A stretch of 64,000 bases of DNA from Microbacterium natoriense (GTDB taxonomy: Bacteria; Actinomycetota; Actinomycetes; Actinomycetales; Microbacteriaceae). A program made the position numbers and the translations under genes. Where the stretch lies: contig NZ_JAUSXV010000001.1 of assembly GCF_030816295.1 (NCBI RefSeq), forward strand, positions 310,001 through 374,000, given 5' to 3'. Under the pieces are notes generated by a model, which was not told the origin of the DNA, did no database searches, and worked only from the letters and a program-made list of their open reading frames with translations. Below, in pieces: positions 24,230 through 28,510 of the stretch. The stretch's first letter is position 1. Each line of letters begins with the position of its first letter.

Positions 24230-24296
24230 GGGGGCGACGCGCCAGATCGGGGGTCCGTTTCGCGATTCCGTCCCCCGATCTGGCGTGTCGACCCCC
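24230..24296. repeat. Palindromic repeat, family B, copy 1
   Basis: Left arm CGACGCGCCAGATCGGGGG (24235-24253), 18-nt loop containing CGTTTCGCG, right arm CCCCCGATCTGGCGTGTCG (24272-24290). That gives a 19-bp stem with one mismatch, flanked by G and C runs. It lies 58 bp upstream of the ClgR/PopR-like gene. Confidence 0.75.
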
Positions 24297-24353
24297 GTTC
24301 TGCTCTGAGCAGAACTGCTTCGACCGAGGCGCGGGTGCGGATTATCGTGAGGC

Positions 24354-24689
24354 ATGGCCGACATCGTCCCGTTCCCCCATGCACCCCGTCGTCCCGCCGA
24401 CCCGGAGCCGCTGTGGCGGCACCTGCTCGGCGATCAACTGCGCCGCCGCCGACATGACCGCGAGGAGACGCTGACCGAGACCGCCGAGAAGGCGGGCGTC
24501 TCACCGCAGTACCTCTCTGAGGTCGAGCGCGGACTGAAGGAGCCGTCGAGCGAGATGATCGCAGCGATCGCGGGGGCACTCGACGCGTCGCTCATCGAGC
24601 TCACGAGCTCGGTCGCCGACGAACTGCGGTCGGCGCCGGCATCAGCCGCCGTGTCCTCCGGACGCGGAGCCTTCGCGCTGGCCGCCTGA
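24354..24689 (+). CDS. popR: ClgR/PopR-like activator of clp genes
   Basis: A 111-residue XRE regulator. The HTH reads TLTETAEKAGVSPQYLSEVERGLKEPSSEMIAAIAGAL, close to ClgR of mycobacteria/corynebacteria (LREVSDAARVSLGYLSEIER-type) and to Streptomyces PopR. It lies convergent to the two clpP genes. PopR activates clpP3clpP4 in Streptomyces and is itself degraded through a C-terminal Ala-Ala. This protein ends FALAA, a similar hydrophobic-Ala-Ala tail. It is therefore likely an unstable, Clp-controlled activator of the adjacent operon. The choice between ClgR and PopR is uncertain. Two copies of a 70-bp palindrome flank it in opposite orientation. Confidence 0.75.
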   Translation: MADIVPFPHAPRRPADPEPLWRHLLGDQLRRRRHDREETLTETAEKAGVSPQYLSEVERGLKEPSSEMIAAIAGALDASLIELTSSVADELRSAPASAAVSSGRGAFALAA

Positions 24690-24780: not shown

Positions 24781-24847
24781 GGGGACGACACGCCAGATCC
24801 GTGGACGAGACCGCGAAACGGTCCCCCGATCTGGCGCGTCGGCCCCC
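24781..24847. repeat. Palindromic repeat, family B, copy 2 (inverted)
   Basis: GACGACACGCCAGATCCGTGG on the left pairs imperfectly with CCCCCGATCTGGCGCGTCG (24823-24841). The loop carries CGCGAAACG, the reverse complement of the copy 1 loop, so the whole unit is inverted relative to copy 1. It lies between the 3' ends of the regulator and the second clpP gene. Confidence 0.75.
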
Positions 24848-24883: not shown

Positions 24884-25477
24884 TCAGGCGTCGCGCGCGC
24901 CCAGCACCGAGTCGATCAGCCCGTACTCCAGGGCGGCGGATGCGGTGAACACGCGGTCCCGGTCGGTGTCGGCGCGGAGCTCTTCGAGCCTGCGGCCGGA
25001 ATGCCTGGCGAGCACAGACTCCATGTCGGCACGCACCCGCACCACCTCGTCGGCCGCGAGGATCAGGTCGGGGATCGCCCCGCGCGACTGCCCGGCCGGC
25101 TGATGCAGCACGATGCGGGCGTGCGTGAGCGCCGACCGCTGACCGGACGCACCGGCCGCGACGAGCAGAGCCGCCGGGCCGATCGCCTGTCCGACGCACG
25201 TCGTCGCGATCGCGGGGCGGATGTGCTGCATGGTGTCGTAGATCGCCAGCGCCGCACCCGGATCACCGCCTTCGCTGTTGATGTAGAACTGCACAGCGCT
25301 CTCCGGACTGTCGCCGTCGAGGTGCAGCAGCTGGGCGATCAGGGCGTTCGCGACTCCGGCGTCGATACCGGTGCCGAGGTAGACGACCCGCTCGGCGAGC
25401 AGGTGCGAGTAGACGTCCATCACGCGTTCGCCGCGCGGATGCTGCGCGATGACGTTCGGGATCGTGTAGCTGCTCAT
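24884..25477 (-). CDS. ClpP-family subunit lacking the nucleophilic serine
   Basis: A 197-residue ClpP-fold protein, second of two overlapping clpP genes. His125 (IVLHQPAGQ) and Asp160 (RADTDRD) of the triad are present, but the nucleophile position in the GQAASM-type motif reads GQAIGPAALL: Gly100, codon GGC, complement of 25178-25180. The oligomer-building glycines (NSEGGDPGAAL) and overall length are normal, so it should still form rings. It is probably a catalytically silent partner, as ClpR is in plastids and cyanobacteria, that needs the upstream ClpP for activity. The ATG at 25477 overlaps the upstream stop by 4 nt. Confidence 0.88.
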   Translation of the reverse strand: MSSYTIPNVIAQHPRGERVMDVYSHLLAERVVYLGTGIDAGVANALIAQLLHLDGDSPESAVQFYINSEGGDPGAALAIYDTMQHIRPAIATTCVGQAIGPAALLVAAGASGQRSALTHARIVLHQPAGQSRGAIPDLILAADEVVRVRADMESVLARHSGRRLEELRADTDRDRVFTASAALEYGLIDSVLGARDA

Positions 25478-26088
25478 GCGTCCACCCCCAGGCCGACACG
25501 AGCCTTCCGCCGCGGCATCACCTCGGCGAACGACGAGACGATCTCGTCGATGAAGCCGTAGTCCTTCGCCTGGGGCGCGGTGTACCAGCGGTCGTGCAGG
25601 GAGTCCTCGAAGATGCGATCGCGTGGCTGACCGGTGTCGTCGGAGATGAGCCCGAGCACGGTGTCGCGCATGTGCCGCAGATCGTCCGCCTGCGTCTCGA
25701 TCTCGACAGCGGAGCCGCCGATGCCCGCCGATCCCTGATGCATGAGGATCCGCGCGTGCGGCAGCGCTCGACGTTTTCCTGCGGTCCCCGCGGAGAGCAG
25801 GAACTGACCGGCGCTGCAGGCGAGCCCGAGCGCGAGGGTCGAGACGTCGTTCGGCACGAGCTTCATGAGGTCGCGGATCGCGAGCATCGACGGCACCGAG
25901 CCGCCGGGCGAATGGATCCACAGGGCGATGTCGGCTATCGGGTCCTCGGCCGACAGGGTGAGCAGCTGCGTCATCAGCAGCGTGCCGTTGTCGTCGTCGA
26001 GGGCTCCGTCGAGCACGAGGATGCGCTCGTGGAACAGCGCCCTGCGGGCTTCGGGTCCGAACTGCGGGATGGGGTTCTCTTCGCTCAT
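25474..26088 (-). CDS. clpP: ATP-dependent Clp protease proteolytic subunit
   Basis: A 204-residue ClpP with an intact triad: Ser92 in LACSAGQFLLSAG, His117 in RILMHQGSAG and Asp162 (FEDSLHDRW, aligned with the E. coli ERDTERDRF region). It is promoter-proximal and coupled to the second, Ser-less subunit by ATGA. The sequence departs from house-keeping ClpP1/ClpP2 (MHQGSAGIGGSAVEIE rather than MHQPLGG), which with the adjacent ClgR/PopR-like gene suggests the accessory ClpP3/ClpP4 class. It assembles with an AAA+ unfoldase, not encoded here, in the cytoplasm. Confidence 0.88.
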   Translation of the reverse strand: MSEENPIPQFGPEARRALFHERILVLDGALDDDNGTLLMTQLLTLSAEDPIADIALWIHSPGGSVPSMLAIRDLMKLVPNDVSTLALGLACSAGQFLLSAGTAGKRRALPHARILMHQGSAGIGGSAVEIETQADDLRHMRDTVLGLISDDTGQPRDRIFEDSLHDRWYTAPQAKDYGFIDEIVSSFAEVMPRRKARVGLGVDA

Positions 26089-26140: not shown

Positions 26141-26161
26141 GGCTCTGCCGACAGCGGAGCC
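26141..26161. promoter_or_regulatory. ClgR-box-like inverted repeat upstream of clpP
   Basis: GGCTCTGC, CGACA, GCGGAGCC: an 8-bp inverted repeat with one mismatch, about 53 bp upstream of the first clpP start. Its core TGCCGACAGCG (26146-26156) fits the corynebacterial ClgR core CGCYNANRGCG, as I recall it, at all but the first base. A role in binding the neighbouring ClgR/PopR-like protein is inferred. It also lies between divergent genes, so it could influence the thioesterase. Confidence 0.45.
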
Positions 26162-28041: not shown

Positions 28042-28510
28042 TTGGCGAAAGCGCAACTCGATGAGGTCGATCTCGAGATCCTCGCGATCCTGACCCGCGA
28101 CGCCGAGATCACGAACAAGTCCCTCGCGCACCGGCTGGGTCTCGCCGAGTCGACGTGCGCACACCGGGTGCGGGCGCTGCGCGAGCGCGGCGTCATCCGC
28201 GACACCCGCATCCGCGTCGACGGCGCCGCCCTCGGATTCCCGCTGCAGGCGATCATCAAGGTGCGTCTCGCGAACCACACCGGGGAGAAGGTCACGGCGC
28301 TGTTCGACGCGCTGGTGAGCATCCCCCGGCGTGCTGCAGGTGTTCCACGTCGCGGGGGTCGACGACTTCCTCGTGCACGTCGCCGTGCAGGACGCGACGG
28401 CGCTGCGTGACATCGTGCTCGAGCACATCACCGTCCACCCCGTCGTGCGCGGCACCGAGACGCAGCTCGTGTTCGAGCTCCGCGACGGCGGCGGGCTTCT
28501 CGCGCGCTGA
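28042..28510 (+). pseudogene. Lrp/AsnC family regulator, interrupted by a +1 frameshift
   Basis: Starts at TTG 28042 after GAGGAGGG. The N-terminal HTH is intact (DVDLEILAILTRDAEI-type region and NKSLAHRLGLAESTCAHRVRAL), and the RAM domain reads normally to ALVSIP. The frame then shifts at CCCCC (28323-28327). Deleting one C restores GVLQVFHVAGVDDFLVHVAV through to the stop at 28508-28510, giving a normal 155-residue Lrp protein. As written, translation ends at 28410 with an unrelated tail. It may be a sequencing error or a real lesion. It is divergent from the cystathionine-lyase-type gene, its probable target. Confidence 0.85.

Follow-up and report, generated by a model that had tools for sequence, protein, structure and literature searches.

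An Incomplete Catalytic Triad in ClpP4 of a Putative PopR-Controlled Clp Peptidase of Microbacterium and Other Actinomycetes

Introduction

In the window analyzed here, a stretch of 64,000 nucleotides from Microbacterium natoriense, the second of two adjacent clpP genes encodes a protein with glycine in place of the nucleophilic serine. This locus raises the question of what a ClpP paralogue without its nucleophile contributes to a Clp peptidase, and how widespread such paralogues are. The PopR-controlled ClpP3P4 backup system of Streptomyces is already known, and the viability of S. lividans requires either clpP1P2 or clpP3P4, according to excerpts of PMC9765437. Among 121 prokaryotic Clp-protease-like proteins, 21 putative inactive homologues were counted (PMC2605481, in excerpt). 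The literature searched, which consisted of partial texts and did not extend to the founding Streptomyces paper, yielded neither a statement that ClpP4 is missing catalytic residues nor a report of the pattern of triad loss described below.

Results and Discussion

The clpP3–clpP4 Locus and the ClpP4 Active Site

The two genes are co-oriented on the minus strand (C1:334884–336088), apart from clpP1clpP2 at C1:3.106–3.108 Mb of the 4.19-Mb genome. We assigned the first as clpP3 (positions 25474–26088 of the window; P0002, 204 aa), which encodes a protein with a short N-terminus, and the second as clpP4 (24884–25477; P0001, 197 aa). Both proteins matched the Pfam CLP_protease family (PF00574; 1e-52 and 6.3e-58, respectively), and the reading frames share four bases, ATGA, in agreement with the sequence-only reading, which had described a translationally coupled pair. 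That reading had also named the catalytic residues. For ClpP3, its Ser92 (25813–25815) and His117 (25738–25740) were retained, and the catalytic Asp was relocated from residue 162 to Asp166 (25591–25593, all on the minus strand); with this triad, ClpP3 is predicted to be catalytically intact. For ClpP4, the codon check verified GGC, the complement of 25178–25180, as Gly100 at the nucleophilic Ser position. The catalytic His125 (25103–25105, minus strand) was present as claimed, but residue 160, proposed as the catalytic Asp, is a Ser, and the alignment assigns this role to Asp174 (24956–24958, minus strand). ClpP4 is thus a match to the S14 peptidase family that retains the catalytic His and Asp and lacks the nucleophilic Ser. 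Our triad assignments are consistent with S111, H136, and D185 of the E. coli ClpP precursor (excerpts of PMC2605481).

The stretch around the nucleophile position reads CVGQAIGPAALL, with Gly100-Pro101 (Pro101 at 25175–25177, minus strand) where ClpP has Ser-Met. Proline offers no backbone NH, and in active ClpP the backbone NH at this position presumably contributes to the oxyanion hole. Position 101 is Pro in 46, Val in 52, and Ala in 1 of 99 congeners. Additionally, ClpP4 carries SEGG at the position of the SPGG motif, which we take to include the oxyanion Gly. SEGG or CEGG was found in most of the clade of Ser-less ClpP4 proteins, and SPGG in the Streptomyces, family f19, and housekeeping rows. 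The AlphaFold models were too low in confidence to be used, with a mean pLDDT of 47.3 for ClpP4 and 65.9 for ClpP3.

One of the two observations that the sequence-only reading had named as refuting its claim was conservation of the nucleophilic Ser in the second protein. We looked for this and found Gly in 92, Ser in 5, and Ala in 2 of the 99 Microbacterium ClpP4 proteins (the window's included), so the claim stood. An isolated local mutation was ruled out by the same count. A 99% identical ClpP4 is encoded in G225, another genome of this species, and its Gly, together with the use of four Gly codons across the genus (GGC 50, GGG 17, GGT 14, and GGA 11), ruled out a base-calling slip.

Survey of ClpP Triads Across Actinomycetes

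Triads are given below as three-letter codes of the residues at the Ser, His, and Asp positions. The sequence-only reading had described the lost serine in one actinobacterium and had asked whether Streptomyces ClpP4 or other Microbacterium ClpPs share it. The loss is no local oddity: the triad was broken in 249 and intact in 27 of the 276 ClpP4 proteins surveyed, in sets that include 80 named loci (the best 80 of 538 confirmed), and all 275 ClpP3 partners surveyed retained Ser-His-Asp. The loss is real, conserved, and more general than had been supposed. In Microbacterium, where matches at E up to 1e-68 occurred in 99 of 198 genomes and all 99 were read, ClpP4 was GHD in 89, SHD in 5, AHD in 2, and GDD, GND, and GHG in 1 each, the GHG protein being encoded at a contig end; ClpP3 was SHD in 99/99. 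For the named set from other Actinomycetes, which comprised the top 80 of 538 confirmed loci when ordered by identity to an Ala-type query, ClpP4 was AHD in 75, GHD in 2, and SHD, ADD, and DHD in 1 each, alongside 80/80 SHD for ClpP3. The Streptomyces set (50 of 52 strong matches read, from 121 genomes) lacked the catalytic His of ClpP4 in 50/50 cases (SGD 48, SGE 2), again with SHD in every ClpP3. Streptomyces ClpP4, which kept the Ser and has Gly for His, is the converse of the window's protein, in which the Ser was lost and the His kept, and is thereby recast as a probable pseudopeptidase. The genus in both the Microbacterium and Streptomyces sets was assigned via named relatives.

Two further families showed other patterns. 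Family f19, sampled as the 30 matches closest to an intact query and hence biased toward intact triads, had SHD in 21, SHN in 7, and SHS in 2 ClpP4 proteins, and SHD in all 30 ClpP3 proteins. In family f22, with 17/17 matches read, ClpP4 was EHN in 6, EHH in 5, SHN in 4, SHS in 1, and AHD in 1; ClpP3 was SHD in 16/16, one further locus being cut off ahead of clpP3. Presumed housekeeping ClpP2 differs in being SHD in 48/48 loci, with upstream partners SHD in 46 and SHE in 2; the 19 class-sample loci (L017–L019 and others) were labeled housekeeping from sequence and the absence of popR.

The 27 intact triads bear on whether ClpP4, if only in certain lineages, might still cleave peptides in an unconventional way. 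As described in excerpts of PMC9765437, Listeria monocytogenes ClpP1, likewise one of two ClpPs with a degenerate triad, has its catalytic Asp replaced by Asn and gains activity in complex with ClpP2, and the SHN and SHS lineages of ClpP4 may for this reason not be dead. Listeria ClpP1 differs, however, in retaining its nucleophile; Gly is no nucleophile, and Pro101 and SEGG would damage the site of the window's protein further. We regard residual peptidase activity of ClpP4 as very improbable.

Clp cassettes also occurred in records of unusual context. In the clpP3-clpP4-HTH cassette borne by Prescottella equi plasmid p1-WH99 (L039), the ClpP4 triad is broken in yet another way, with Gly at the Ser position and Gln at the Asp position; this ClpP4 is too diverged to place. 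A Tsukamurella record labeled as a plasmid (NZ_LR134452.1; L036) has a clpP3-clpP4-HTH cassette beside obgE and proB, and may on account of these neighbors be a chromosomal piece.

History of the Losses

We built a 70-row ClpP tree after removing the triad columns. Near-duplicates, L016, L039 (Gly/His/Gln, long branch), L006 (an AHD ClpP4), our own duplicates, and L239–L250 were left out; a separate alignment set of 237 proteins comprised the top entries of two match lists (120 Gly, 106 Ala, and 11 Ser). ClpP4, including that of Streptomyces, was split from four housekeeping ClpP2 rows with a support of 100/97. Three broken clades were recovered: the His-less (His to Gly) clade of Streptomyces (100/99), an Asp-less clade of f19 and f22 (Asp to Asn/Ser/His; 100/92) with the Ser-to-Glu rows nested within it, and a Ser-less clade (Ser to Ala/Gly; 100/100, branch 0.65) that contains the window's ClpP4, Microbacterium, and many families. 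The intact rows branch close to the base of the tree, and the branching order of the three broken clades had a weak support of 80/53. Because each broken clade retains the residues missing in the others, at least three separate first losses are the simplest account.

The Ser-less clade also holds six intact ClpP4 proteins (L107, L188, L191, L255, L256, and L259; four were tree rows). All six use TCG for the Ser, one step away from the GCG Ala codon of their relatives, and a regain of Ser is possible on this ground. Since 27 of the 276 proteins are intact, six of them within this clade, silence of ClpP4 is not obligatory.

On balance, we favor the interpretation that silencing of ClpP4 recurs in the PopR-controlled Clp system across Actinomycetes, with a different triad residue lost first in each lineage and ClpP3 always spared. 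Streptomyces ClpP4 would itself be a pseudopeptidase, and the backup protease a naturally half-dead barrel, paralleling ClpP/ClpR in bacteria but of independent origin.

The PopR-Like Regulator and Its Putative Boxes

The sequence-only reading had noted an adjacent ClgR/PopR-like regulator, which our search bore out. The gene (24354–24689, plus strand; P0003, 111 aa) encodes an HTH protein that matched the NCBIfam ClgR model at 4e-18, yet stayed under the cut-off (65.5 of 170 bits), and for this reason a ClgR paralogue such as PopR is a fitting assignment. The gene faces clpP4, an arrangement conserved in 231 of the 233 loci where both genes were read. The predicted protein ends in ALAA; a C-terminal LAA was found in 64 of the 66 congeners for which the sequence examined included popR, as well as in 74/76 loci of the named set (best 80 of 538).

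The PopR box has been published as TCTGCC-N3-GGCAGA (PMC9775585, in excerpt). A PopR-box-like site, TCCGCTGTCGGCAGA (26144–26158, minus strand), lies 56–70 bases upstream of the clpP3 start, and matches 10 of 12 positions at −70. Counting boxes with at least 10 of 12 matching positions, and taking the expectation from shuffles, we found a box ahead of clpP3 in 88/99 Microbacterium congeners (1.2 expected), 48/50 Streptomyces (0.6), 72/80 named loci from the best 80 of 538 (0.9), 20/30 in f19 (0.3), and 15/16 in f22 (0.1). A second PopR-box-like palindrome, TCTGCTCTGAGCAGA (24299–24313, plus strand), lies 41–55 bases upstream of the popR start, and a box at this place was found in 55/65 Microbacterium congeners (0.4 expected), 8/45 Streptomyces, 29/76 of the named set (best 80 of 538), 3/29 in f19, and 1/15 in f22. 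As popR-side boxes are scarce in the other groups, autoregulation of popR would at best be a Microbacterium trait. A degenerate form of the box, composed after the clpP3 site had been seen, had two matches in the window, one ahead of clpP3 and the other ahead of popR, with 0.16 expected, and 1 of 100 shuffles gave two matches.

The convergent popR ending in ALAA, together with PopR-box-like sites upstream of both clpP3 and popR, marks the locus as a backup Clp system of the PopR-controlled type described in Streptomyces. By homology with Streptomyces, housekeeping ClpP1P2 would normally destroy PopR via its -AA end; upon failure of ClpP1P2, PopR would build up, bind the sites upstream of clpP3 and of its own gene, and turn the operon on. 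In S. lividans, ClpP3/ClpP4 are also able to degrade PopR. The sequence-only reading had likened the pair to plastid ClpP/ClpR, but the Streptomyces ClpP3P4/PopR system is closer. It shares the clpP3-clpP4 pair accessory to clpP1P2, the convergent popR ending in -LAA, the box before clpP3, and a ClpP4 that falls in one clade apart from housekeeping ClpP2; the window differs in having the additional box before popR. As in cyanobacteria and plastids, an inactive ClpP paralogue, here judged by its triad, is paired with an active one, and clpP4 corresponds to the description of ClpR as a ClpP paralogue without a complete triad next to an active ClpP. ClpR differs in phylum, partner, and regulator, and excerpts of the literature report that the ClpP3/R rings are mixed.

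Two 46-base palindromic hairpins (CGCCAGATC...GATCTGGCG) lie on either side of popR (24240–24285 and 24791–24836). Their exact-arm pattern occurs in three copies in this genome, three in G225, and none in the two other species tested.

Constraint and Proposed Division of Labor Between ClpP3 and ClpP4

A broken triad could mark clpP4 as a decaying duplicate on its way to being lost, and the listed matches of 4/99 congeners contain an in-frame TGA. The dN/dS values of clpP4 against five other species were, however, 0.07, 0.096, 0.074, 0.14, and 0.094, below those of clpP3 against the same species (0.146, 0.112, 0.176, 0.159, and 0.173), indicating that clpP4 is under purifying selection; comparison with G225 gave 0.237 for clpP4 and 0.053 for clpP3, from too few changes. 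The full-length frame, the operon, and the boxes are furthermore conserved across families, and decay is accordingly a highly unlikely account.

Alignments of ClpP4 to solved ClpPs begin at residue 5 or 6, and its match to the ClpP model covers the N-terminal segment, while the match of ClpP3 begins only at profile position 29. The N-terminal gate segment is thus present in ClpP4 and absent from ClpP3. At the docking positions, defined as those mutated in S. hawaiiensis (PMC9765437, in excerpt), Microbacterium ClpP4 has Q, Y, and H, and the named loci (best 80 of 538) have Q, Y, and Y/H/F. These are close to housekeeping ClpP2 (T/I, Y, Y); housekeeping ClpP1 has Y, Y, F, and ClpP3 has A, W, L. 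The third position in Microbacterium ClpP4 is His, not an aromatic residue, in 86/99, a point against the docking role proposed below. The inter-ring Arg/His positions (173 in ClpP4 and 165 in ClpP3) showed lineage patterns, but a clear pairing was not found. According to excerpts of the respective papers, the Ser of ClpP1 alone is required in S. hawaiiensis ClpP1P2, the Ser of Streptomyces ClpP2 being dispensable, and the ATPases dock via ClpP2 (PMC9765437); ClpP2 is likewise the only docking side for ATPases in M. smegmatis (PMC6889138). By analogy with this similarly asymmetric two-subunit core, in which cleavage falls to ClpP1 and ATPase docking to ClpP2, we infer that ClpP3 would cut and ClpP4 would dock.

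The most likely reading, well supported by homology and one we hold with fair confidence, is therefore that the cassette is a PopR-controlled backup Clp peptidase in which ClpP3 is the sole cutter and ClpP4 a silent gate and ATPase-docking ring. The two-subunit core with one silent subunit, as originally predicted, is supported by the triads. The assembly, ring arrangement, and docking proposed here draw on Streptomyces and mycobacterial ClpP1P2. All peptide-bond cleavage would come from ClpP3, and ClpP4 would be a structural subunit, most likely in a heptameric ring of its own, that keeps the gate segment and the docking face. With catalysis confined to ClpP3, the ClpP4 triad would have been free to go, and it has repeatedly been lost. 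The retention of His125 in 96 of 99 Microbacterium ClpP4 proteins counts against this reading, because the catalytic His would be superfluous in a subunit with a structural role alone.

Alternation of ClpP3 and ClpP4 inside each heptamer has a precedent in Synechococcus ClpP3/R, where each ring combines three ClpP3 with four ClpR subunits (excerpts of PMC4673316), and the translational coupling of the two genes (4-base overlap in 90/99 congeners and in 79/80 named loci, best 80 of 538) would favor equal dosage. We nevertheless consider mixed rings unlikely, since the actinobacterial two-ClpP cores described in the literature passages have one ring of each kind, and the N-termini of ClpP3 and ClpP4 differ as those of ClpP1 and ClpP2 do. 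Alternatively, ClpP4 could join housekeeping ClpP1 or ClpP2 and disable or retarget it under stress, in the manner of S. hawaiiensis ClpP_ADEP, which disrupts ClpP1 complexes and forms a new core with ClpP2 (PMC12607617, in excerpt). A poison would have no need of a dedicated catalytic partner, and clpP4 lies beside an intact clpP3 in each of the 275 loci with a readable clpP3, making this option more doubtful still.

If ClpP3 cuts and ClpP4 is silent, these loci supply many natural single-active-ring Clp proteases, with which the role of the second ring in ClpP heterotetradecamers is testable without engineering. The separation of cutting and gating would have evolved repeatedly beyond cyanobacteria and plastids. 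The arrangement also bears on the workings of the ADEP-insensitive backup and on the question of which subunit is accessible to active-site inhibitors.

Housekeeping clpP2 and Other Observations

The strain's own housekeeping clpP2 (C1:3106501–3107128; L001 780–1429, minus strand) contains an extra G (CACCGGGCAAGAC) that places a stop ahead of the catalytic Asp. The gene is intact in G225, and several further one-base differences from G225 occur over approximately 35 kb compared, including one G too many in a run of Gs at about window position 28328, inside an apparently (by eye) frameshifted Lrp/AsnC-type regulator gene (28042–28410), itself a possible homopolymer error. Based on the intact G225 gene and these differences, the extra G in clpP2 is more probably an error of assembly than a genuine mutation, and the idea that the strain lives on ClpP3P4 owing to a broken housekeeping clpP2 is accordingly disfavored. 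G225 additionally has an extra ClpP match on contig C83 (L299, 6537–7014), which is in two pieces and apparently broken.
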